Positions 5,446-19,281 of a stretch of DNA of 35,453 nt are shown here, one piece after another. This DNA comes from a virus. The translations under genes and the position numbers were made by a program. Positions within the stretch are counted from its first letter, which is position 1. Each line of letters begins with the position of its first letter. The stretch lies in the IMG/VR virus record IMGVR_UViG_3300031566_000190, positions 1-35,453 of that record. One strand, written 5' to 3'. A model generated the notes under the pieces. It was given only the letters and a program-made list of their open reading frames with translations. It had not been told where the DNA came from and did no database searches.

Positions 5446-5658
5446 TCAATTCGCATTGGCCCTTTGCCATGTGCACAACAGGAAGCCCTGTCTTTTCTCC
5501 AAAACATTCCACTTTGAATAAACTTTGCCGTCCTTCGTTTTGAAATAGACTGAATGCTGCGACCCGCACTTACAGCAAATATGCGTCTCTCGCTTTTCCC
5601 AGGGATACCAAATGCCAGTGATTACATCGGTGATTTTATCGGGGCGCAAGCGGCTCAT
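5446..5658 (-). CDS. Small zinc-ribbon-like protein
   Basis: This is a 70-aa protein if it starts at the ATG at 5658, which overlaps the endopeptidase stop as ATGA (GGGATGGG lies just upstream); a start at 5667 is also possible. It has a HICCKCGSQH motif (CxxC followed by His) and one later Cys, consistent with a half zinc ribbon. It sits in the lysis region but has no signal peptide. Function is unknown; nucleic-acid or metal binding would be inferred from the Cys motif only. Confidence 0.6.
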   Translation of the reverse strand: MSRLRPDKITDVITGIWYPWEKRETHICCKCGSQHSVYFKTKDGKVYSKWNVLEKRQGFLLCTWQRANAN

Positions 5659-6164
5659 TTCGCCCATCCCGGCGCTTCCGATTCGGGAAACGATATCTGC
5701 ATGTCCCTGTATCTCCTGGGCATTCCGATGTGAATGAACCCGATCTTGGTATATACCCGCATTTGATAGAAACTGAGACCATGGTTGAATATCTTAAAAG
5801 CTACCATTTCAACCTTTTGGCCTGGCACTGTAATGTCATAAGCTCCATCATTCATCCTGGCAAATAGATGCTGGCTTGTCGATACCCCGCCAACCGCCGC
5901 ATTGAGTTCCGGGAAACGCCCGCCATTATTTACTATCACCGGCGCATCGACTATTTCCCTAATCCCTTCGAGCATATATTCACTGCCGAAAATCAGGCGG
6001 TCCAGGTACGGCTGGTGCGAAAAATATTCCCGGTTCGCTTTTACGAGTTCCGGGTGATCCCTTGATTTCGTGCACTCAAAAAAACTGAAATGCTTGGAGA
6101 GCCAAAAATCACCTGCTTTAAGTTTCATTGCCATTATAGTAGTATTTGTTTTACCGTTTGTCAA
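5655..6164 (-). CDS. Peptidase M15-type endolysin
   Basis: A 169-aa protein resembling Peptidase_M15_3 (D-Ala-D-Ala carboxypeptidase or L-Ala-D-Glu endopeptidase fold), which cuts peptidoglycan cross-links. The zinc-site signature is visible as STSQHLFARMNDGAYD (H99 and D110 counted from the TTG) and FIHIG (H145). The N-terminal phrase FWLSKHFSFFECTKS is common in phage lysins of this group. The start is uncertain: the TTG at 6164 gives 169 aa with AAAGG very close to it, while internal ATGs at 6134 and 6128 would remove only the non-conserved N-terminus. It follows the transglycosylase directly. No signal peptide is present, so release would need a holin. Confidence 0.85.
   Translation of the reverse strand: MTNGKTNTTIMAMKLKAGDFWLSKHFSFFECTKSRDHPELVKANREYFSHQPYLDRLIFGSEYMLEGIREIVDAPVIVNNGGRFPELNAAVGGVSTSQHLFARMNDGAYDITVPGQKVEMVAFKIFNHGLSFYQMRVYTKIGFIHIGMPRRYRDMQISFPESEAPGWAK
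6133..6164 (-). promoter_or_regulatory. Possible promoter at the endolysin start
   Basis: On the minus strand a perfect TTGACA lies at 6164-6159. A TACTAT hexamer follows after 17 bases, and an overlapping perfect TATAAT follows after 20. If it is active, transcription would begin inside or just after the ATG cluster of the M15 gene, so it might serve terS and packaging genes instead. The coding context makes chance plausible. Confidence 0.3.
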
Positions 6165-7272: not shown

Positions 7273-7567
7273 CCTTCCCCTCCCTTGCGGCGAACGCCTC
7301 GTCCTCCGCTATCATGTCCTCTGCAATCAGAGCATCGGCCATGTCGCCAATAGCTTCTCCAAAATGCGCCAAAACTGTTTTTACTTCTTCGGGCTTGTCT
7401 TTGTGTTCATATATTTCGACAAGGCATTGCTTGGATAAACCGCCAGACGCAAGCTGACTTTTATACCATTGCCGAAGCGTCATGCCGGGGATATCTCTAT
7501 GTGCTGTGTTTTTATCACTGCCCGTCCATTGTGTTCTCGGGAACGCCGCCCCGCCGTCATTCTTCAT
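7265..7567 (-). CDS. Phage hypothetical protein (GGAAFP / GMTLRQW type)
   Basis: The ATG at 7567 has AAGGAGG 6 bases upstream; a longer start at 7591 has none. The 100-aa protein starts NDGGAAFPRTQW and contains PGMTLRQWYKSQLASGG, a pairing I recognise from many small phage proteins of unknown function. The C-terminal half is helical and acidic, ending AAREGKDE. It overlaps the Cys/His-rich gene by 8 bases. Function is unknown in all cases I know of. Confidence 0.75.
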   Translation of the reverse strand: MKNDGGAAFPRTQWTGSDKNTAHRDIPGMTLRQWYKSQLASGGLSKQCLVEIYEHKDKPEEVKTVLAHFGEAIGDMADALIAEDMIAEDEAFAAREGKDE

Positions 7568-7643
7568 GGTTGCCTCCTTGTTTATTTTCACACACCGGGC
7601 ATTGTTTAAAAAGCAAAGCCTTTTGTTTTCTCGCGGATTTCAT
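7557..7643 (-). CDS. Micro-ORF A with CPVC motif (28 aa)
   Basis: This ATG lies inside the end of the 72-aa gene and the frame continues through the intergenic gap into the next gene, ending TGA at 7559-7557. The product has FKQCPVCENK near its middle, a CxxC zinc-knuckle-like motif, and ends GGNHEE. There is no clear ribosome site. I list it because similar CxxC micro-ORFs occur at neighbouring junctions (8653-8715, 9035-9139, 9844-9909). Part of its C-terminus is simply the AAGGAGG site of the next gene read in another frame, so it may be chance. Confidence 0.35.
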   Translation of the reverse strand: MKSARKQKALLFKQCPVCENKQGGNHEE

Positions 7644-7824
7644 TTGCAATGTCTGGTCTGATAATGTCCAATCTGACAACTGCTTCGCGAAGTCCGTTTC
7701 TAATTTCATCATCCGTTTCAGCATTGTCTATTAACTCTATGGTTTTCTTTGATGCCAAATCATCGTCATGTCGTAAGATATCAAACACCAAAAGACAGGC
7801 TTTTGTAATGTTCTCATAATTCAT
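7606..7824 (-). CDS. Hypothetical helical protein (72 aa)
   Basis: The ATG at 7824 has AAGGAGG 6-7 bases upstream, lying within the end of the radical SAM gene, which it overlaps by 11 bases. The protein is acidic and all-helical, with a repeated pattern of D/E-rich turns (DDDLASKK, NAETDDEIRNG). It resembles in composition the 108-aa protein at 8712-9038; both mention a region of repeated Ile/Leu with charged turns, but I cannot call them homologues. Function unknown. Confidence 0.7.
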   Translation of the reverse strand: MNYENITKACLLVFDILRHDDDLASKKTIELIDNAETDDEIRNGLREAVVRLDIIRPDIANEIREKTKGFAF

Positions 7825-8656
7825 TTGTTTCCTCCTTACATTTCGGGCACGGTTCCCCGGCCTTTAAATGTTTCATCCAAGTTTTCCACCTTGCTGGTCG
7901 CGTCCATTTATTTTGAAGCCGCAACCATTTTGCTGAATAATATTTTGGATCCTCAGATTGATACAACATCATAAAGGGGTATGCGCCAATCTTTGCAACA
8001 TCCATACACCTGGCCTCGGCCTTCTCTAATGTGTCCCCTTGATAACCAGCTAATAAATAAACCCAAAGCTTTCTCCCAATATCCAAATATCGCGAAACCT
8101 TTTTTATGGTTTTGAAATCACCTGGCCGATCGTAAGCCAGGAATACCCGATATAGTTTCAACCGTTTTATTTCATCAGCAATGTCCCTTGTGATCAACCT
8201 CGCATCAAGCCCCTGATTGAAGTCGATCTGCCTTTTATCAGATAACATTTTAAATACTTCGGCGATGTGCTTCTCTGAGCAAGCCAGCAAATTATTGTCC
8301 ATGATAATATTGCCATCATGGATTTGTAATTCCCTGATCCCGCCCTCTCGTTTGGGGACAAAGCAATACCAGCAATTATTCGGGCAACCCCTGGACGTAA
8401 AAACACAGCCCGGTTTTATAAATTTCCCCGGCTCAAACTCCGCGCCGGGATCGTTAAAAGCCGGACCACCTATAATAACCTCGCCATGATCTTCCCATTG
8501 CTTTGCCAACCACTGAGCATGGGGGATGTCCCAGGTGAAAATTGTTGAAATATAAACCTGATCATATTTTGGCGTCCAGTATCCCGGAACATCAAAATAG
8601 GCGTGTTCATCCATCGGTGAAAATTCTGTTTTTGACGGGAACACGCGGGCGATCAC
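7814..8656 (-). CDS. Radical SAM enzyme
   Basis: A 280-aa protein with the radical SAM cluster motif CxxxCxxC at C91, C95 and C98 (SRGCPNNCWYCFVP), which binds a [4Fe-4S] cluster and cleaves S-adenosylmethionine. The first 85 residues include an IIGGPAFNDPG segment that resembles the cobalamin-binding-like region of MiaB/elongator-type enzymes, but no DxHxxG motif is seen. A final CPKC pair (about 269-272) may bind a second metal. Start is GTG, overlapping the upstream micro-ORF as GTGA. Related phage proteins of this layout exist from memory; the substrate is unknown. Its partner nearby is a PAPS-reductase-family enzyme, which suggests a nucleic-acid or nucleotide modification, by inference only. 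Confidence 0.85.
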   Translation of the reverse strand: MIARVFPSKTEFSPMDEHAYFDVPGYWTPKYDQVYISTIFTWDIPHAQWLAKQWEDHGEVIIGGPAFNDPGAEFEPGKFIKPGCVFTSRGCPNNCWYCFVPKREGGIRELQIHDGNIIMDNNLLACSEKHIAEVFKMLSDKRQIDFNQGLDARLITRDIADEIKRLKLYRVFLAYDRPGDFKTIKKVSRYLDIGRKLWVYLLAGYQGDTLEKAEARCMDVAKIGAYPFMMLYQSEDPKYYSAKWLRLQNKWTRPARWKTWMKHLKAGEPCPKCKEETNEL

Positions 8657-8715
8657 GTTACGACCTCGTTGTGGTCTTTATTACAAACGCAACAAGGGAA
8701 AACATAATCTTTCAT
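8653..8715 (-). CDS. Micro-ORF B with CCVC motif (20 aa)
   Basis: The 57-base gap between the 108-aa gene and the radical SAM gene is filled exactly by a 20-codon ORF. Its ATG overlaps the upstream stop as ATGA, and its stop overlaps the radical SAM GTG as GTGA. The peptide has VFPCCVCNKDHNEVV. The C-C-x-C-x-K-x-H-N-E pattern recurs in micro-ORF C at 9035-9139. Only a weak ribosome site is visible, so translation would depend on coupling. Confidence 0.55.
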   Translation of the reverse strand: MKDYVFPCCVCNKDHNEVVT

Positions 8716-9038
8716 TTTGATTTACGGGCAAGCTCTTCTTCGAGTTTGTCCATTGGATTTCCCTGTGAGGGGCCACATTCAACCCATCCCGTCAAATATA
8801 GTGCCTGTTTCAGGGCGACCCTAACACCGGGACGTTTTTCATTTTCTATCATCTCGGTTAATTTTTTATCTCCCCCCAATATCCTGTCGGCGACAAGTGC
8901 GAAACACGTTGCGTTATAATAGTAATCATCAAAATAATCTTGCAGTTTTCTTGCAATTTCATTTGCGATTTTAACACTCATTGTTGGTGCTTCCCTTGCG
9001 AACTGTTCAATCAAGTAAACATAATGGATGTTGTTCAT
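8712..9038 (-). CDS. Hypothetical protein (108 aa)
   Basis: The ATG at 9038 has a strong AGGAGG site 6 bases upstream. The protein begins MNNIHYVYLIEQFAREAP and is helical, with one Tyr/Asp-rich stretch (YFDDYYYNATCF). It contains no recognised catalytic motif. It lies between two micro-ORFs and the PAPS-reductase-family and radical SAM genes, with ATGA overlaps on both sides, so it is probably part of the same functional unit. Function unknown. Confidence 0.7.
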   Translation of the reverse strand: MNNIHYVYLIEQFAREAPTMSVKIANEIARKLQDYFDDYYYNATCFALVADRILGGDKKLTEMIENEKRPGVRVALKQALYLTGWVECGPSQGNPMDKLEEELARKSK

Positions 9039-9139
9039 TTATTCCTCCTAATAAATTTACCTTCATTGTGCGGCTTGTGGCAGATACAGCAATCAAATGA
9101 AAACTCACGGTTCAAATATGAATTGCTTTTGGTTCTCAT
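9035..9139 (-). CDS. Micro-ORF C with CCIC motif (34 aa)
   Basis: The ATG at 9139 lies within the end of the PAPS-reductase-family gene in another frame. AAGGGAG lies about 9-10 bases upstream, and the TGA overlaps the next gene start as ATGA. The peptide contains FDCCICHKPHNEGKF. The core C-C-[IV]-C-x-K-x-H-N-E is shared with micro-ORF B. Three features agree (ribosome site, coupling and motif recurrence), so this is the best supported of the micro-ORFs. Confidence 0.62.
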   Translation of the reverse strand: MRTKSNSYLNREFSFDCCICHKPHNEGKFIRRNK

Positions 9140-9878
9140 CTATTTTTACTCCCTTGTCGTTTGCCAACCACCAATCCATTACCTCTTGGCCTGTCGCCCA
9201 GGTTGTCTTAAGGTTACGCTCTTTTCTCAGAGCAAGCATACGTTCAAATGCCAGCAAGTATGATTTTTTGATTTTAAGATTATCTTCCAGTTGCCGCTTT
9301 TGGTCTGGAGAATTAGGGCAACCGATACAACCTATTCGGTTATATCCCCGGTCGTAGAGTTCGCACCAGTAGCCTATTTCTTTTCTGATGAAGTCCCAAA
9401 CATCGGTTTCGTCCCAATCTATGATGGGGTTTAAAATATGGCCGTGTCTGCGCTTGCAGGGTTGGAACATCTGCCATGATCTGCGGCGTATGCTCTCGGC
9501 GGCTCGGACTCCGGTTACGACCGTGCGGCGTTCTCCTCCATGTTCCTTGAGTTCCTCGCAGCAGTAACGCGCTATTCTTGTTGGGGGCATAAGTTTGTCT
9601 GGTATCAGTTGCCACATGGTACGTTTTGGTCTATCAAAAATAACGGTTGGATATTTATTTTGCATGAACCGGATAATTTCGGGCGGATCAACGGTGGTTA
9701 AATTGTAGTGGGCATCAAACTTACAGCCCGACATCTCCATAAGTTTGTAAATGACTTGGCTATCTTTGCCACCGGAAAAGGCGAGGTAGTAGCCATCTAG
9801 CGGCTCAAATGTTTTTAGCCGTTCGATGGCGATGGAAACCTTATCAATTAACATTTTTATAAAATAATCCAGATCCAT
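9105..9878 (-). CDS. PAPS-reductase-family PP-loop enzyme
   Basis: A 257-aa protein of the phosphoadenosine phosphosulfate reductase / DndC-like ATP pyrophosphatase superfamily. The PP-loop is SGGKDS (35-40), followed by GVRAAESIRR (about 123-132) and PIIDWDETDVWDF (151-163), the usual order. Four further cysteines are notable: C106 and C107 in RYCCEELK, and C184 and C187 in GCIGCPNS, an arrangement compatible with an iron-sulfur cluster as in DndC or TtcA-like proteins. These enzymes activate a substrate with ATP and often transfer sulfur. The start lacks a ribosome site and lies inside micro-ORF D. The phage substrate (DNA, tRNA or nucleotide) is not known. Confidence 0.87.
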   Translation of the reverse strand: MDLDYFIKMLIDKVSIAIERLKTFEPLDGYYLAFSGGKDSQVIYKLMEMSGCKFDAHYNLTTVDPPEIIRFMQNKYPTVIFDRPKRTMWQLIPDKLMPPTRIARYCCEELKEHGGERRTVVTGVRAAESIRRRSWQMFQPCKRRHGHILNPIIDWDETDVWDFIRKEIGYWCELYDRGYNRIGCIGCPNSPDQKRQLEDNLKIKKSYLLAFERMLALRKERNLKTTWATGQEVMDWWLANDKGVKIDENQKQFIFEP

Positions 9879-9909
9879 TATTAAAACAATAACAATGTTT
9901 ACATTTCAT
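9844..9909 (-). CDS. Micro-ORF D with CxxCxC motif (21 aa)
   Basis: AAGGGGG lies just before two adjacent ATGs at 9912 and 9909; the first overlaps the stop of the DnaC-like gene as ATGA. The peptide opens MKCKHCYCFNNGSGLF. It overlaps the start of the PAPS-reductase-family gene by 35 bases in another frame, and that gene has no ribosome site of its own. The layout recalls phage Mu com, a small zinc-finger protein gene overlapping and controlling mom, but homology is not shown. Confidence 0.48.
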   Translation of the reverse strand: MKCKHCYCFNNGSGLFYKNVN

Positions 9910-10793
9910 CATTCCCCCTTCGCCTCGCTGTGGAGGGAGGCTTTATTTCTCCGATAGTCCTTACCTTTCAACATGATCGCCCGGCAGTTCTCAAATATGC
10001 GGGATACGATCTTGTCATTGAGTTTTGATTCCATTTGCGTTTTGGTTAAATTTGTAGTAACGACAATTTTTCCCCGGCGTTCATCGAGGAACATCTTGAA
10101 CTGCTCTTTAAAAAACTCAGAGTATTCCCGATCAGCAGTCCCGAGGTCATCAATCACAACGACATCGGCCCGACGCATATCAATTATGGCCTGCCGGGAT
10201 TCAATATCTATTTCATCCCTGGTCGGTTGTGATTCCAGAAACGTCTGAACCAATCGCTCACAGGCCACAAAGTGCGTATCCCTGCCGTCCCGTAAAAAAT
10301 CATTCTCAACCATTTTAGCAAGTGAGGTTTTCCCAAACCCACAGGATCCGGAAATAATCAGCGAACCAAAATCGGATTTATAAAAATCCTTCGCAACATG
10401 GAAGGCGGCAACGTCTCGCGGGTCAATAGAAAGCTTGGCCCAGGGATCTGGCGCTGTCGCCCGCAAGGATGATCGCACCGCCTGTTCAGGATTCCGGTCA
10501 ACCCAGTCAGGGCAAAGCTGAAACATCGAATCACAAAAGCTCTTATTCGATATTTGCACCTGGCCGTCGTCACCGGTCCTGGAAATGAGGCCGAAATAAT
10601 GCCAGTGGTATTTACCATCGCAAAAAATATAAGTTTTATTTTCAGCGTCACTGAATAATTCACCGGCAAAGCGTTTCATGTTTCGGCTATGCTCGATATC
10701 CCTGAATCTGGAATATTCATCGGTCCGCTTGTCCGTCCATTCGTCAAATTCGTTTTTAACGCGGTCCGCTTGCTTAGTTATAGTGCAGATCAT
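9909..10793 (-). CDS. DnaC/IstB-like AAA+ ATPase, helicase loader
   Basis: The ATG at 10793 overlaps the upstream stop as ATGA with GGAG 8 bases before it, giving 294 aa. The first 130 residues are an N-terminal domain of unknown type. The ATPase core has Walker A SGSCGFGKTS, Walker B VVVIDDLG, a sensor-1 strand VVTTNLT, and an arginine-finger region IVSRIFENC near the end. This is the DnaC/IstB/DnaI arrangement, so it probably loads a replicative helicase at the phage origin. No phage helicase gene is seen, so the host helicase is the likely client. It is coupled to the initiator-like gene upstream. Confidence 0.85.
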   Translation of the reverse strand: MICTITKQADRVKNEFDEWTDKRTDEYSRFRDIEHSRNMKRFAGELFSDAENKTYIFCDGKYHWHYFGLISRTGDDGQVQISNKSFCDSMFQLCPDWVDRNPEQAVRSSLRATAPDPWAKLSIDPRDVAAFHVAKDFYKSDFGSLIISGSCGFGKTSLAKMVENDFLRDGRDTHFVACERLVQTFLESQPTRDEIDIESRQAIIDMRRADVVVIDDLGTADREYSEFFKEQFKMFLDERRGKIVVTTNLTKTQMESKLNDKIVSRIFENCRAIMLKGKDYRRNKASLHSEAKGE

Positions 10794-11920: not shown

Positions 11921-12207
11921 GACTTTATTTTATTTTCTTTCCGCTCCGCCGCCCTCACCTGCTGGCCCAGCCACTTGACGAACCGGCGCCGGAATACCCA
12001 GGTGAAGCCGTCTACCTGATAGCCGCAACCCTTCGGCCAGGGCTTGTCGTAAAAGTACAGATCAAAGTCGTGCCGCCACTCGCGCAGGCGCCTTTCCGCG
12101 GTCCCGGGCTTCATCCCCTTGACATGCCGGAATACATCACAATGGCAGATCAACCCGCCGTCCAGCTTTTCCAGCAAATACTTTACGCAAAGTATTTTTT
12201 CGGTCAT
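11917..12207 (-). CDS. Small basic protein, possible DNA-binding
   Basis: A 96-aa basic protein, coupled by ATGA to the methyltransferase upstream. The N-terminus has a helical pattern with ICHCDVFRHV and PGTAERRLREWRHDF, which could be a winged-helix or helix-turn-helix, and the C-terminus is rich in Arg/Lys (FRRRFVKWLGQQVRAAERK). It is the last gene of the recombination/methylation transcript before the replication promoter. I do not recognise a family. A DNA-binding regulator is plausible from charge and pattern only. Confidence 0.6.
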   Translation of the reverse strand: MTEKILCVKYLLEKLDGGLICHCDVFRHVKGMKPGTAERRLREWRHDFDLYFYDKPWPKGCGYQVDGFTWVFRRRFVKWLGQQVRAAERKENKIKS

Positions 12208-13598
12208 GTGGCCTCCTTGAAGTTTAGTTTTTTATTTACAAGCGTAGCATCTATGCGCTTGCGGGCGATTTCGCAGTATTCGGCCTCACGTTCAATGCCG
12301 ATGTAGTTAAGGCCTTCGAGTTTAGCGCCCTTGCCCGTGGAGCCTGAGCCGATGAACGGATCTAAAACTATGCCGTTGGGCGGCGTTACGAGGCGGCACA
12401 GATAGCGCATGAGGGCGGTTGGCTTAACGGTGGGGTGATTGTTGCGACTTATCCCTGTCCATCCAGTCGGTTCCGGGCATTCACAATGACATCCAGATTT
12501 TTCTCTCTGTTCCGAATAAGTATGTCCACATTTATTACATTTGAAATGCCAACTCGTTACGGTTTGGCCTTCCATCCCCTCGCACCCCTCATCCCTATCC
12601 TGTTTGCTTGCCTTGGCGCAGTAGAAAAAGCGGGCGGCTGAGCCGGAGTCGCCGATACGGGTGCCGTTACCCTCATGATTTCCACAAAACATTGATCTCC
12701 CATTTTGGGATAATCCACCACCCCGCACATATCCAGCACCATGAACAACCGGAAACCCCGCCAGCACTTCCTCGCTGCCGTCGTGTATGAGGTTCGCGGG
12801 GAAGCGGCCTTGTTGAGCACGTTCCTTAGCTTCCGCATTGTGTTTTGAAACTTTATCGGCATCTGCCATCCACGGACGGCACCATCCCTTGTCGCTTAAA
12901 TCTTTACGGCGGAAGGCATCTCCAGACAAGGCCGCATCTTTATCAAAATCAGAAGCATATTCAACCCTGCACCCATCCACATTGATCCCCCCCGTGCCGT
13001 ATTGCAGTACATTGGCGGCAACCGTGCCGATCAGCGGCTTACGGGCCAGCGTCCACAACTCCATTGCGGGCTTGAGGGCGGTTCCCCAGCCCTCCCATTT
13101 GGAAGTGCCAACGGTATTATAAACCTCAATGCGTGGTTTTTGGGTGGCAATGCCGCCATGTAATTCCGCTATACCGGTTTCTTTGTCCCTACGAATATCG
13201 GCATAGGTTCCATTTTTTTTACCTGTAATCTCCCGGTCATTCCCCCGTATCTTATCCACCGCCTTGCCAATATTCAGCGATTTCGGAAAACCTGAGCCGT
13301 ATATCCAGGCGATCAAATCTCTAATCTCAAATCCAGCATCCTCGATGTTTACCGCCATGCGGTGCTGCGTCCTGGTTCCGCAAGCGCACAAAATATGCCC
13401 GCCGGGTTTCAGCACCCGCAAGCACTCGACCCATACCTCAACTTTTGGCACATCATAATCCCAATGCTTACCCATGAACGAAAGGCCGTAGGGCGGGTCG
13501 GTGACTATGCTGTCAATGGAGTTATCCGGCATGGTCTTTAGAATCTCAAGGCAATCGCCCTGCAAAACCTTGTTGATATAATTAATTGGCCAAATCAT
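12204..13598 (-). CDS. Beta-class DNA N-methyltransferase
   Basis: A 464-aa S-adenosylmethionine-dependent DNA methyltransferase. Motif IV TDPPYG lies near residue 33 and motif I DPFIGSGSTG near residue 420, so the order is beta class (N6-adenine or N4-cytosine). The long middle region (about 100-370) would hold target recognition. It includes a Cys-rich insert, CNKCGHTYSEQREKSGCHC (about 355-375), that looks like a zinc ribbon. GAGAGGTAGGA gives a good ribosome site. Its ends resemble the smaller methyltransferase at 17613: both have INKVLQGDCLEI-type openings and RIDxTLVNKKL endings, so they are paralogues. No restriction enzyme is nearby; self-protection or regulation is likely. Confidence 0.9.
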   Translation of the reverse strand: MIWPINYINKVLQGDCLEILKTMPDNSIDSIVTDPPYGLSFMGKHWDYDVPKVEVWVECLRVLKPGGHILCACGTRTQHRMAVNIEDAGFEIRDLIAWIYGSGFPKSLNIGKAVDKIRGNDREITGKKNGTYADIRRDKETGIAELHGGIATQKPRIEVYNTVGTSKWEGWGTALKPAMELWTLARKPLIGTVAANVLQYGTGGINVDGCRVEYASDFDKDAALSGDAFRRKDLSDKGWCRPWMADADKVSKHNAEAKERAQQGRFPANLIHDGSEEVLAGFPVVHGAGYVRGGGLSQNGRSMFCGNHEGNGTRIGDSGSAARFFYCAKASKQDRDEGCEGMEGQTVTSWHFKCNKCGHTYSEQREKSGCHCECPEPTGWTGISRNNHPTVKPTALMRYLCRLVTPPNGIVLDPFIGSGSTGKGAKLEGLNYIGIEREAEYCEIARKRIDATLVNKKLNFKEAT

Positions 13599-14399: not shown

Positions 14400-15029
14400 T
14401 TAAGACAAGTTATAACGATTTTGTAAACTGTACGCCATGAAAAAAAAGGGTAGCTCGACCTTGTAACTGAACGGCTGCATACGGCAGCGGCCATCTTTTG
14501 AAATGCATATTTCTGCCAGCTTCAGCCGCCCGGCAGTTGTCAGCCCACGCTCAATAGCCATCAAGCCATAAGCCGCAAGCTGCAGACCTGTTACCGTGTC
14601 GGGTTGCCCCGTCTTAATATCGATCAGCCAATCCCATTTTTCGGTCTCAAACAGGCGGTCAAGTCTCCCGGCAATCAGGTATTTCTCGGAGCAGTTCGGG
14701 AACTCGGCCAGCATCTTTTTTGTGTCCCATACCTGCCGCTCCCTGAATTCCGTCCAGCCTAAAATGTACGGCATCATGCGGGGATCTCCACCGGGGAGCA
14801 GTTTGCCGAGGTCGTGCAAGTACAGATAATTGTGGGCATGGCTCCCCCATTCAAGATCGATAGAGTTGACGAACGAATGGTCGCGGAGTCTGCTGGTGTA
14901 GCCGGTGATTGATTTTAGCGGCCTGCTGTTCAGCGCGTACTTGTGCGCTTCGGGGTCAAAAGTGAAGCCTGGGATAGGGGCAACCTCTTGCCCCTTCCAG
15001 ATGGTAACTCCCCCGGCCCCGATGGTCAT
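14400..15029 (-). CDS. PD-(D/E)XK nuclease, Cas4/RecB-like
   Basis: A 209-aa protein with the RecB/Cas4-type nuclease core. The residues are visible as IAGRLDRLFE (GxxD, about 118-127), WLIDIKTG (DxK, about 134-141) and LQLAAYG (about 149-155, the QxxxY motif). An upstream SITGYTSRL segment and WGSHAHNYLYLH (with the metal-ligand His) complete the fold. It is coupled by ATGA to a Cys-rich small ORF and lies two genes after RecT, so it probably supplies the 5' exonuclease for single-strand annealing recombination. The Cys ligands of true Cas4 iron-sulfur clusters are not evident in this chain. Confidence 0.85.
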   Translation of the reverse strand: MTIGAGGVTIWKGQEVAPIPGFTFDPEAHKYALNSRPLKSITGYTSRLRDHSFVNSIDLEWGSHAHNYLYLHDLGKLLPGGDPRMMPYILGWTEFRERQVWDTKKMLAEFPNCSEKYLIAGRLDRLFETEKWDWLIDIKTGQPDTVTGLQLAAYGLMAIERGLTTAGRLKLAEICISKDGRCRMQPFSYKVELPFFFMAYSLQNRYNLS

Positions 15030-15199
15030 TGATCGCCCATGTATAGATCGTCAAACGGGGGCATGTATACGTCGGTATCGCGCTCTTCATCACGCTCACT
15101 TTCCCAATTTATCACTTCTTGGCAATCAGCCTCCATGTCCATGCGCTCAGTTATGCAATGCCCCTCGAATTCGCAACCTTCACAGGCGGGGTGTTTCAT
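15026..15199 (-). CDS. Cys-rich acidic small protein (57 aa)
   Basis: The ORF fills the gap between the 64-aa Cys/His-rich protein and the nuclease, with ATGA overlaps at both ends. It begins MKHPACEGCEFEGHC, a CxxC plus nearby Cys pattern, with another Cys about 11 residues on, then becomes very acidic (NWESERDEERDTD). Metal binding is likely. Since the adjacent nuclease resembles Cas4 but lacks its cysteines, a partner role can be imagined, but nothing shows it. Confidence 0.65.
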   Translation of the reverse strand: MKHPACEGCEFEGHCITERMDMEADCQEVINWESERDEERDTDVYMPPFDDLYMGDQ

Positions 15200-15390
15200 T
15201 CCCGATACCTATCAATACCATTCTCGTCAATAAAATGATCCCGCTCTTGACTTTGATGTTGATTTTGGTCTTGATCCCCAAAATATTTGTCCCCCCGATC
15301 CCCGCCGTTACAGTGACGACAAGGGTTGCACTCTGGGCAATTCCCGTGATTACAAATCCTCGATCCGCAATTTCCGCAATGTTCTGACAT
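15196..15390 (-). CDS. Cys/His-rich zinc-finger-like protein (64 aa)
   Basis: The N-terminal half has eight cysteines in close CxxC spacing (CGNCGSRICNHGNCPEC, then CRHC), consistent with two compact zinc sites. The C-terminal half is polar and Gln/Asp/His-rich (DQDQNQHQSQERDHF), suggesting disorder. It lies 5 bases after recT with a weak ribosome site and overlaps the next Cys-rich ORF as ATGA. No family is recognised; nucleic-acid binding in recombination is inference. Confidence 0.65.
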   Translation of the reverse strand: MSEHCGNCGSRICNHGNCPECNPCRHCNGGDRGDKYFGDQDQNQHQSQERDHFIDENGIDRYRE

Positions 15391-16357: not shown

Positions 16358-16624
16358 TCAATCCCACGGATAACGCTTCCCCGGCGCGATACATTTGCCA
16401 TCAGTGGCCATGCACCCATCGGGGATCCCATCGCTATCCAGATCGTTGAGCCTGCAATGATAGCAGTCCTCGCGGGTTGCCTTGGGGAGCATCTCCGGGT
16501 AGAATATCTTTTTGCAGTCAGGACATATTCCGTGGCTGTCCCGGTCCGTGGCCGGGCGGTCGGGCACGATCACCCACTCGCCGTTTACCTTGATGCGGGC
16601 GCAGCCAGCGCATGCGATAATCAT
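16358..16624 (-). CDS. Zinc-ribbon protein with Ca-loop-like segment
   Basis: An 88-aa protein with CAGCARIKVNGEWV and HGICPDCKKIFYPE, the two halves of a four-Cys ribbon like the short zinc ribbons attached to some bacterial signalling proteins. A second Cys group follows (CYHC, C, C) around LNDLDSDGIPDGC, which looks like a thrombospondin type 3 or EF-hand-type calcium loop. It is linked by ATGA to the small membrane protein upstream. Function is unknown; DNA or RNA binding is possible. Confidence 0.65.
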   Translation of the reverse strand: MIIACAGCARIKVNGEWVIVPDRPATDRDSHGICPDCKKIFYPEMLPKATREDCYHCRLNDLDSDGIPDGCMATDGKCIAPGKRYPWD

Positions 16625-17041: not shown

Positions 17042-17212
17042 TTAATACAACCGTAAAACCTGCAGCAACCTGAACCACCGCCACGGTTTGCCACTCGCTT
17101 TGCGCCAACACGTGCGGCAGATTTCCTTGTACCGCGTCCCGATCAAATGCCCGGTATCAGCCCTGACGCTTCGCAAATGCTTCGCCTCAAACCCGCAATC
17201 AGGGCAGGTCAT
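17042..17212 (-). CDS. Zinc-ribbon protein (56 aa)
   Basis: The ATG at 17212 is coupled by ATGA to the upstream 46-aa ORF, with GTGAAGAG before it. The protein is basic and contains CPDCGFEAKH and a later CRTC (about 36-39), a four-Cys treble-clef or ribbon layout. The C-terminal tail is Arg/Trp rich (KPWRWFRLLQVLRL). It is likely to bind zinc and nucleic acid; the exact role is unknown. Confidence 0.65.
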   Translation of the reverse strand: MTCPDCGFEAKHLRSVRADTGHLIGTRYKEICRTCWRKASGKPWRWFRLLQVLRLY

Positions 17213-17349
17213 CTCTTCACCGCCGCCCACAGCGCCGCCCGGACCCATGCCGCCGCCTTGCGCCCCTTGCGCTTCAGGATGACCAACAATTCAGGTTCAA
17301 CCCGCTGTGTCCAGAGTACCATCTTTTTGGGATCTTTTATGCGAGGCAT
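17209..17349 (-). CDS. Small basic protein, ribbon-helix-helix-like (46 aa)
   Basis: A 46-aa ORF starting at ATG 17349 and ending in an ATGA overlap. It is strongly basic, with a short strand (MVLWTQRVEPELL) followed by helices (ILKRKGRKAAAWVRAALWAAVKR). That order of strand, helix and AAAWVR is what small ribbon-helix-helix regulators look like, but the match is loose. As the second gene behind the promoter at 17537-17565 it could be an autoregulator; this is inference. Confidence 0.55.
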   Translation of the reverse strand: MPRIKDPKKMVLWTQRVEPELLVILKRKGRKAAAWVRAALWAAVKR

Positions 17350-17612: not shown

Positions 17613-18296
17613 TCAGGATTTTGTTTCCAGGGCGGCGAAATCCAATTTCTTGTTGACCAACGTACCGTCTATGCGCTTTTGGGCGATTTCGCAGTATTTC
17701 TCTGATATCTCTATACCGATAAACTGGCGGCCCAATAGCTTGGCTGCAACGCCGGTTGTGCCTGAGCCGAAAAAGGGGTCGAGGATGATGTCGTTTTCAT
17801 CTGAATAATTATTGACTATATCCTTCCAAAGGCGAATTGGTTTTGGACAAATATGACCAATGGCACTATTGTCATTCAAAAAACCATTGTCAACATAATG
17901 TTCAAATACATCGCTATCACGTTGACGTTTATGTTTTCCATAAAAAAGTATTGGTTCCCATTTTGCGAAATGAGCGATTGAAGCGCCACCATGAGCATTG
18001 GATTTTATCCAACTTCCTATCTCTGCTGGAAATAAAGATAACCATAAATTGAGATTTTGTCTTCCGGGAGTAATTATAATATTTAAGCAAATCCTTCTTA
18101 TGGCGTCAAACCACAAATTTACTAATTCACAATATTCGGATTGAGATTTATTGTCGTCGTAATTATCATACTTCAAATTGATATTATACGGTGGATCGGT
18201 CAGCACCAAGTCCACGCTCTTGTCGGGGATGCCTTTCATTATCTCCAGGCAATCGCCGCAAATAATTTTGTTTACAAAGTCACCGGGGTATATCAC
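17613..18296 (-). CDS. Small beta-class DNA N-methyltransferase
   Basis: The GTG at 18296 overlaps the stop of the cytosine methyltransferase as GTGA, giving 227 aa. Motif IV TDPPYN is near residue 37 and motif I DPFFGSGTTG near residue 182, the beta-class order, so it should methylate N6-adenine or N4-cytosine. It is close to a minimal catalytic domain, with a short recognition region (about 60-165). Opening GDFVNKIICGDCLEIM and ending RIDGTLVNKKLDF mark it as a paralogue of the 464-aa enzyme at 12204. A longer reading from 18350 would extend into the 38-bp repeat and is not favoured. It is the last gene of the methylation block. Confidence 0.88.
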   Translation of the reverse strand: MIYPGDFVNKIICGDCLEIMKGIPDKSVDLVLTDPPYNINLKYDNYDDNKSQSEYCELVNLWFDAIRRICLNIIITPGRQNLNLWLSLFPAEIGSWIKSNAHGGASIAHFAKWEPILFYGKHKRQRDSDVFEHYVDNGFLNDNSAIGHICPKPIRLWKDIVNNYSDENDIILDPFFGSGTTGVAAKLLGRQFIGIEISEKYCEIAQKRIDGTLVNKKLDFAALETKS

Positions 18297-18330
18297 TTCC
18301 CCTCCCGGTCCCGGACGTACTGCTCCAGGG
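18293..18330. repeat. 38-bp direct repeat, copy 1 (end of cytosine methyltransferase)
   Basis: Identical at 35 of 38 positions to 19072-19109 in the same orientation. It covers the stop/start overlap and last codons of the methyltransferase, encoding LEQYVRDREGK. The pair flanks the methyltransferase gene. Confidence 0.9.
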
Positions 18331-19075
18331 ATGCAGTCAAGATATTCCATGCCATTGCAGCCACTGCCGGAACTTGTCCATTTCCAATAGCTGCAAGTCT
18401 GTCCATTTGATAGGCCAGCCCATCCACAATTCCCCGATGACCGGATTCAGTTTCCCAGCTTTGCAGATTGTCTTTGATTTTATAACAGTCGTCAAAGATG
18501 CTCCCCATCTTCTTCCATCCTTCGCTATTTCTGATGTTCCTTCCAATGTTCTGCACCCCGTTGAGTCTATCTCTGTTTTGCATATAGTTGGCCATAATCC
18601 AGATTCTATCTCGTTTATGCGGCGCCCCGGCGTCAACAGCTCCCAGCACTCCCCAAATTGCATCATACCCCATCGTGGCCAAGTCTCCAAGGACTGTTCC
18701 AAGTCCACGAATAACCAGCGCTGGGGAATTTTCCACGAAGCAGTAACGAGGTTGTATTTCGCGAATGATCCTGGCAAACTCTCCCCACAGTCCAGATCGT
18801 TCTCCACCGATACCTTTTCTTTTCCCTGCGACTGAAATATCTTGGCATGGGAATCCTCCACAGACAACATCGACTTTTCCTCGCCATGGCTTTCCGTCAA
18901 AGGTTCTGACGTCATCCCAGATCGGGAACTTTGGCAAGATTCCGTCTCGTTGTCGCTGCAATAAGACTTCTCGGCAGTAAGGTTCAATTTCAACAGCACA
19001 TACTGTGGTATGTCCGAGAAGGATTCCGCCGAGGATACCCCCCCCTGCTCCTGCAAATAAGTGTAGCTCATTCAC
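18293..19075 (-). CDS. C5-cytosine DNA methyltransferase
   Basis: A compact 260-aa C5 methyltransferase starting at GTG 19075, which overlaps the preceding stop as GTGA. The motifs are in the standard order: I ELHLFAGAGGG (residues 3-13), IV with catalytic Cys GGFPCQDIS, VI ENSPAL, VIII RDRIWI, and IX-X AIGNGQVPAVAA near the end. The target-recognition part is short (about 170-215). The C-terminus LEQYVRDREGK repeats the C-terminus of the upstream zinc-finger protein, because the gene is flanked by a 38-bp direct repeat. A second long frame (18337-19071) runs inside it. Modification of phage DNA against host restriction is the likely job. Confidence 0.9.
   Translation of the reverse strand: MNELHLFAGAGGGILGGILLGHTTVCAVEIEPYCREVLLQRQRDGILPKFPIWDDVRTFDGKPWRGKVDVVCGGFPCQDISVAGKRKGIGGERSGLWGEFARIIREIQPRYCFVENSPALVIRGLGTVLGDLATMGYDAIWGVLGAVDAGAPHKRDRIWIMANYMQNRDRLNGVQNIGRNIRNSEGWKKMGSIFDDCYKIKDNLQSWETESGHRGIVDGLAYQMDRLAAIGNGQVPAVAAMAWNILTASLEQYVRDREGK
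18337..19071 (-). CDS. Second frame inside the cytosine methyltransferase (244 codons)
   Basis: An ATG 4 bases after the methyltransferase start opens a +1 frame that stays open for 244 codons, covering 94 percent of that gene. It begins MSYTYLQEQGGVSSAESF and ends with MGWPIKWTDLQLLEMDKF. I recall phage proteins with this kind of start (SSAE, FSDIP) and with a WMGWPIxWTDL ending next to C5 methyltransferases, but I cannot confirm this here. Random sequence would rarely stay open so long. The alternative is that constraint on methyltransferase codons keeps it open. Whether it is translated is unknown; it is rich in Ser, Glu and Trp and has no catalytic motif I recognise. Confidence 0.45.
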   Translation of the reverse strand: MSYTYLQEQGGVSSAESFSDIPQYVLLKLNLTAEKSYCSDNETESCQSSRSGMTSEPLTESHGEEKSMLSVEDSHAKIFQSQGKEKVSVENDLDCGESLPGSFAKYNLVTASWKIPQRWLFVDLEQSLETWPRWGMMQFGECWELLTPGRRINEIESGLWPTICKTEIDSTGCRTLEGTSEIAKDGRRWGASLTTVIKSKTICKAGKLNPVIGELWMGWPIKWTDLQLLEMDKFRQWLQWHGIS

Positions 19076-19109
19076 TTTGCCTCCCGCTCCCGGACGTACT
19101 GCTCCAGGG
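19072..19109. repeat. 38-bp direct repeat, copy 2 (end of zinc-finger ORF)
   Basis: The partner of 18293-18330, with 3 mismatches. It encodes LEQYVREREAK at the C-terminus of the zinc-finger protein and includes the GTGA start of the cytosine methyltransferase. Confidence 0.9.
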
Positions 19110-19281
19110 CGGTGAGGCGGGTTTCGACCTGTGCAATCTTCGATGCCAGATTTTTCCCCTTCCAAAAAGCATCATGGCAATCAGGCCCGCAATCCATCTG
19201 CCAGCTCGTAACCGGGGAAAAGATTTTTTGGCAATTTCGACAAGGTTTGTCTGGGTAACGCTTTGTCCTCACTTTGGCCAT
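19072..19281 (-). CDS. Zinc-finger/coiled-coil protein (69 aa)
   Basis: The first gene behind the consensus promoter, with AAGGAGG 8 bases before the ATG. It opens with a basic stretch (MAKVRTKRYPDKP), then a four-Cys finger, CRNCQKIFSP and CGPDCHDAF (CxxC...CxxxC), then a short coiled coil ending LEQYVREREAK. Zinc and nucleic-acid binding is likely. It sits directly before the cytosine methyltransferase, overlapping as GTGA, so it might regulate the methylation block; that is inference. Confidence 0.7.
   Translation of the reverse strand: MAKVRTKRYPDKPCRNCQKIFSPVTSWQMDCGPDCHDAFWKGKNLASKIAQVETRLTALEQYVREREAK

Follow-up and report, generated by a model that had tools for sequence, protein, structure and literature searches.

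Probable cysteine-knuckle micro-genes in an uncultured tailed phage, one of which may gate translation of a radical SAM gene

The DNA analysed here is the whole IMG/VR record IMGVR_UViG_3300031566_000190 (35,453 bases, hereafter the window), from an uncultured tailed phage. Four short open reading frames (ORFs), A to D, lie at gene junctions on its minus strand; two of them, perhaps three, are likely to be real micro-genes and one is likely to serve in addition as a cis-acting gate on translation. The reading adopted here, namely that B and C are translated micro-genes of one knuckle type, that C also gates the start of a radical SAM gene, that A is a coupling leader and that D is no gene, is held tentatively, at slightly less than even weight as a whole. 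A sequence-only reading of the same DNA had taken the four as a set of CxxC micro-ORFs in a sulfur-type gene island, possibly tiny zinc knuckles acting as subunits or translation regulators. Its observation is partly confirmed and its interpretation partly supported.

The first line of evidence concerns B, which precedes a gene of 108 amino acids (aa), and C, which lies between that gene and the radical SAM gene:

9035-9139, minus strand: micro-ORF B, 34 aa, ending ...FSFDCCICHKPHNEGKFIRRNK, with the knuckle FxCCICxKxHNE
8653-8715, minus strand: micro-ORF C, 20 aa, MKDYVFPCCVCNKDHNEVVT, with the knuckle FxCCVCxKxHNE

The earlier remark that two of the ORFs have C-C-[IV]-C-x-K-x-H-N-E in common is borne out, and the shared motif extends to F-x-C-C-[IV]-C-x-K-x-H-N-E. 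When all non-overlapping pairs of 18-60-codon ORFs on both strands of the window were compared by ungapped alignment, B and C came out at the top of 107,828 pairs with a score of 64 (next best, 51), a value reached by 0/20,000 residue shuffles that preserved the composition of both peptides, Cys/His content included (maximum 49). Over a stretch of 13 codons the two differ at 4/13 first, 3/13 second and 11/13 third codon positions, a pattern which argues for a conserved protein and not a copied DNA element. These results make B and C look like genuine micro-genes constrained at the protein level. They would be either duplicates of old date or convergent versions of a C-x2-C-x3-H knuckle that several small proteins of this phage use.

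Ribosome sites were scored as predicted energies of pairing between the Shine-Dalgarno (SD) and anti-SD sequences, a scale on which -8 is reached by 7.5 % of all minus-strand ATGs. The two clear sites announced by the sequence-only reading are indeed present, at A (-10.8, from the start at 9909) and B (-7.9). The 3' end of B overlaps the 108-aa gene in an ATGA and carries that gene's SD, AGGAGG. C has a weak site (-1.9) but begins on the stop codon of the 108-aa gene; its overlaps with the two neighbours are of 4 nt each, an ATGA upstream and a GTGA downstream. That the gaps between tightly packed genes are open by chance, and their Cys-rich strings accidental, is unlikely but deserves some weight: among about 180 viral loci, gap ORFs with a CxxC occur in antisense too (19/635, against 32/629 in sense, p=0.04), A and D are unlike the other micro-ORFs, and no conservation is seen in relatives. 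Such an account has to contend with a B-C similarity far beyond chance that bears the codon-position pattern of coding sequence, and with double overlaps, which are confined to the sense strand: gap ORFs of 18-45 codons overlapping by 4 or 1 nt at both ends number 7 in sense, C included, and 0 in antisense in these loci.

The second line of evidence is the junction between C and the radical SAM gene, for which C most probably serves as a translated gate. Five junctions were folded, and only this one gave a clear case:

8651-8709, minus strand: predicted RNA hairpin in which C folds together with the radical SAM start, with stems of 9 and 8 bp, taking in the GAGG SD and the GTG

Opening the radical SAM start is predicted to cost 15.4 kcal/mol, the highest of 23 starts tested and at the 99.4th percentile of start-like sites; the figure is 13.9-15.4 in contexts of 120-300 nt and 9.3-11.5 in shorter ones. 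For homologous radical SAM starts in other phages whose GC content does not exceed 0.52, the median cost is 4.7 and the highest 13.9. The fold has a z of -2.85 against dinucleotide shuffles, a level attained by about 1 % of them. Since only 0.8 % of sequences with randomised codons that keep the C peptide reach this opening cost (p=0.008), the hairpin is not explained by the coding of that peptide. The GTG at 8656 is the correct start, because 80 radical SAM homologs open with the same IARVFP motif as the window protein. When a ribosome footprint covers the first half of C, that is the 5' arm of the hairpin, the cost falls to 3.9-7.6.

C is thus a gap ORF whose stop overlaps the next start and whose downstream ribosome site is predicted to be sequestered, as expected of a coupling micro-ORF. 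The suggested role as translation regulator survives in this form, C having the anatomy of a cis-regulator, but does not extend to a set of four. Ribosomes ending the 108-aa gene would re-start on C via the ATGA overlap, their passage through C would melt the hairpin, and the GTGA overlap would let the same or new ribosomes begin the radical SAM gene. Synthesis of the latter would in this way be slaved to translation of both the 108-aa gene and C, a coupling that we infer from the overlaps and the predicted fold.

Several points weigh against this reading. A ribosome at the stop of the 108-aa gene alone roughly halves the opening cost (from 15.2 to 7.5), so that C would be helpful, not strictly needed, for opening. 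Moreover, the hairpin comes from a set of five folded junctions, which makes the 1 % shuffle figure a modest one, and codon usage, uninformative at such length, lends the micro-ORFs no support as coding sequence. Neither B, C nor the hairpin is kept in any relative, all of these being distant (~37-58 % identity). B finally has no coupling role, the 108-aa gene having its own strong and open start. Gating therefore leaves unexplained why B keeps a C-like peptide, and the peptide itself probably matters.

Arrangements of this kind are already known. The closest is mgtQ, an ORF of 8 aa between genes of the Salmonella mgtCBRU operon, whose translation frees the ribosome site of the next gene from a stem-loop (PMC8092293). 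C too is a micro-ORF between two genes with the next ribosome site in a stem-loop, predicted in its case. mgtQ lies in a gap of 219 nt, possesses a strong SD and acts via Asp/Glu codons that destabilise the ribosome (PMC8092293), whereas C lacks an SD, takes up the whole of its gap, overlapping each neighbour by 4 nt, and codes for a Cys/His knuckle. Coupling across ATGA overlaps, with structures melted only by the upstream ribosome, has been described in archaea and bacteria (PMC6728339). These termination-reinitiation pairs share with C the ATGA/GTGA overlaps, an SD inside the upstream gene and a structure over the stop/start; both partners are ordinary genes there, while the upstream cistron has 20 codons here.

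The same overlap could be read differently, B and C being translated by frameshifting as C-terminal extensions of the preceding genes, comparable to the CPKC tail that ends the radical SAM protein. C does lie in the -1 frame and could be entered by a -1 slip on AAAA before the TGA of the 108-aa gene, where AAA TCA AAA TGA permits re-pairing of Lys-tRNA on AAA with the hairpin 5 nt downstream. C also resembles the radical SAM tail (score 33, reached by 0/2,000 shuffles), as the sequence-only reading had suspected, although the KEETNE of that tail is in part the SD and start of the following 72-aa gene read in another frame. Such tails are improbable nonetheless: the canonical two-codon slippery heptamer is absent, B, which possesses an SD of its own, is in the +1 frame and follows a CCG TGA that is not slippery, and re-initiation at the ATGA is the simpler account of C.

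A sensing function is likewise less likely than gating by C. If charged Cys-tRNA ran short, ribosomes might pause where Cys codons cluster and in this way alter the expression of sulfur-type genes. A, B and C each hold three Cys codons and lie just ahead of or near a PAPS-reductase or radical SAM gene, and polycysteine leader ORFs have been reported from mycobacteria, at least in work cited in PMC9094748. In a leader only the Cys codons would have to be conserved, but F, K, H, N and E have been retained too. Folding at the A and B junctions is no stronger than in shuffles (z of -0.14 and +1.21), no terminator-like site was found on the coding strand at either, and the pairing of Cys codons with an attenuator or terminator that marks cysteine-responsive leaders is accordingly lacking at both. 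We regard cysteine sensing as very improbable.

What the peptides themselves might do is best judged from their composition. B (34 aa) and C (20 aa) each contain three Cys and one or two His, with no further Cys or His past the HNE. They probably make a knuckle peptide which perhaps binds zinc; its role would most simply be that of a metal-binding knuckle, ten residues offering three or four ligands. Searches of Pfam and PHROGs returned no reliable match to the micro-ORFs, and AlphaFold run on B without an alignment gave no usable structure (predicted local distance difference test, pLDDT, 58). The second ligand pair that follows the knuckle in HNH and treble-clef folds is missing from B and C, as is the four-Cys zinc finger of about 62 aa typical of Com. 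In phage Mu, Com has 62 aa, a four-Cys zinc finger and a disordered tail (PMC6483171). Like B and C it is a small Cys-rich phage protein, and the downstream start region lies in RNA structure (PMC6483171); B and C differ in offering a single CCxC-x3-H knuckle, and the binding of an mRNA hairpin in trans that marks Com-type activators would be putative for them. The HNHc_6 putative nuclease (PF16784) of other phages contains CCICGKEHNE, which resembles the B/C motif, but there the string belongs to a bigger nuclease that has additional metal ligands, whereas B and C have nothing else.

A rival reading is that the micro-ORFs matter only as peptides, each a single zinc knuckle binding a partner protein or RNA as an enzyme subunit or a Com-like trans regulator, the hairpin being incidental. 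We consider this unlikely, though not negligible. The retention of F, K, H, N and E beyond the Cys residues of B and C, with synonymous third-position changes, speaks for it, as does the presence of other small CxxC proteins in this phage, of which one of 73 aa (5446-5667, ICCKCGSQH) beats most shuffles against C (score 34, reached by 2/1,000). A lone knuckle with three or four possible ligands within ten residues, without a second half such as the four-Cys finger of Com or a treble clef would supply, speaks against it, and in other phages there is no association with PAPS-reductase or radical SAM enzymes. More speculative, and quite improbable, is a combination in which the B/C peptides would be zinc-dependent RNA-binding micro-proteins that open or lock the radical SAM hairpin, or similar ones, so that a knuckle of 20 residues would be the product of its own coupling element and also the switch that works it.

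The minus strand of the window holds six further small CxxC proteins of 57-88 aa, at 5446-5667, 15026-15199, 15196-15390, 16358-16624, 17042-17248 and 19072-19281. The last of these has a weak NinG match (PF05766, 3e-4, below cut-off).

The remaining two ORFs are not the equals of B and C:

9844-9909, minus strand: micro-ORF A, 21 aa, MKCKHCYCFNNGSGLFYKNVN, between the DnaC-like and PAPS-reductase genes
7557-7643, minus strand: ORF D as first named; the open frame runs from an ATG at 7724 (55 aa), and 7643 is an internal ATG

A is likely to be a gene, and probably a coupling leader for the PAPS-reductase gene. A start at 9912 is possible (9844-9912), but 9909 has the better-spaced ribosome site. 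This start overlaps the stop codon of the DnaC-like gene. Coupling is plausible because the PAPS-reductase ATG at 9878 has no SD (+1.0), the SD of A is strong and A stops 8 nt beyond an alternative PAPS-reductase ATG (9854), but the start region is unstructured. D was tried as a gene and rejected. Its anti-SD energy is +0.1 from 7643 or -2.4 from 7724, it overlaps the 72-aa gene by 38 nt, and its tail, KQGGNHEE, is mostly the SD and ATG of the downstream gene read in another frame. The HNE likeness of the D and radical SAM tails is partly imposed by the junction, since both hold the SD or start of the next gene. Neither A nor D is more similar to B or C than residue shuffles are, and D is unlikely to be a gene. 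The four-member set thus dissolves: all four ORFs and their motifs exist, but A and D are without the shared motif and D is without a start signal. The overlaps ascribed to three of them hold for the end of B, for both ends of C and for the start of A on the DnaC-like stop, but D overlaps its downstream gene by 11 nt with no ATGA.

Relatives were sought in viral contigs, which yielded 80 PAPS-reductase loci (~39-58 % identity, the best 58 %) and 80 radical SAM loci (~37-50 %). The conservation in relatives on which the earlier proposal had been staked is largely missing at the family level: a B- or C-like ORF at the matching junction was found in 0/80 and 0/80 of these loci, all of them distant. 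The CPKC tail, likewise found in 0/80 radical SAM relatives, appears from this comparison to be lineage-specific. Phage records searched with the DNA of the entire region gave no match, and single-protein scans of viral contigs with the PAPS reductase, the radical SAM protein and the 108-aa protein gave no relatives. A terminase scan returned contigs of the same virus and one relative at 58 %, none extending to the micro-ORFs. The terminase is 100 % identical to that of the window in contigs of three other IMG/VR sets, none of which reaches beyond ~7585; the virus thus recurs across samples. The motif F.C.[IV]C.K.HNE is absent from the viral contigs, CC.C.K.H[ND][ED] has 7 matches, mostly HNH nucleases, and CC.C.K.HNE occurs at only two places in ~85,000 species genomes, the first inside a larger domain of an HNHc_6 nuclease, the second an open stretch of 39 residues. 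Rfam and tRNA searches gave no match. As far as the collections examined show, the micro-genes are not conserved beyond the present virus.

Nor does the proposed link to sulfur enzymes stand. In other phages these ORFs are missing beside the PAPS-reductase and radical SAM genes, and a specific tie to a sulfur island was rejected, CxxC mini-ORFs being not clearly commoner beside such genes: they lie upstream of 14/86 PAPS-reductase genes against 95/941 other large genes (p=0.06), and of 6/87 radical SAM genes. Together with the sense and antisense counts given above, these figures point to small CxxC ORFs as a general phage habit and not a feature of sulfur genes.

On the minus strand, the order of the block is DnaC-like helicase loader, A, PAPS-reductase-family gene, B, 108-aa gene, C, radical SAM gene, 72-aa gene, D and an 'NDGGAAFP' phage gene. 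The main neighbours are as follows:

9105-9878, minus strand: PAPS-reductase-family gene, 257 aa (PF01507, 1.4e-19; phrog_424, 2.3e-34)
8712-9038, minus strand: 108-aa gene between B and C, SD -10.2, start region open (4.7 kcal/mol)
7814-8656, minus strand: radical SAM gene, 280 aa (phrog_9298, 2.1e-32), with a C-terminal CPKCKEETNEL tail
7606-7824, minus strand: 72-aa gene downstream of the radical SAM gene, SD AAGGAGG (-12.1), SD and ATG within the radical SAM tail codons

The PAPS-reductase protein is 47 % identical to a protein of Methanosarcina virus MetMV; its nearest named relatives include archaeal viruses (MetMV, Altiarchaeum virus), and of the 460 positions of the phrog_424 profile it matches just the central part (143-369). 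The 108-aa gene has no family match in Pfam or PHROGs and no relative in viral contigs. The radical SAM structure model has a pLDDT of 90 overall and 57 for the tail block. Its nearest fold is MiaB, a tRNA methylthiotransferase (template modelling score, TM, 0.56 by query, E 8e-7), a model-based match that is not strong enough to point to a substrate. In several phage contigs, among them Bacteroides phage LoVEphage and Dulem virus 39, PAPS-reductase-type and radical SAM genes are no more than ~4 kb apart and may form a module.

Elsewhere in the window, two DNA methyltransferase genes (12204-13598 and 17613-18350) are 55 % identical over their last 73 residues (...YCEIA[RQ]KRID[AG]TLVNKKL[ND]F), as if these ends had been exchanged or duplicated. 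The neighbouring methyltransferase ORFs 18293-19165 and 17613-18350 have a near-identical opening stretch, PGAVRPG[PA]GG[EK]V, and its similarity suggests a duplicated gene start.

Genes of 20-34 codons are usually too short for gene finders. Although the databases hold no relative, B and C are supported as real genes by three independent signs, namely a paralogue in the same genome with third-position change, double overlaps and a start hairpin stronger than coding requires, and the same three offer a cheap way to spot micro-genes in phages known from a single contig. If C gates the radical SAM gene, it would be a phage example of an intergenic coupling micro-ORF.

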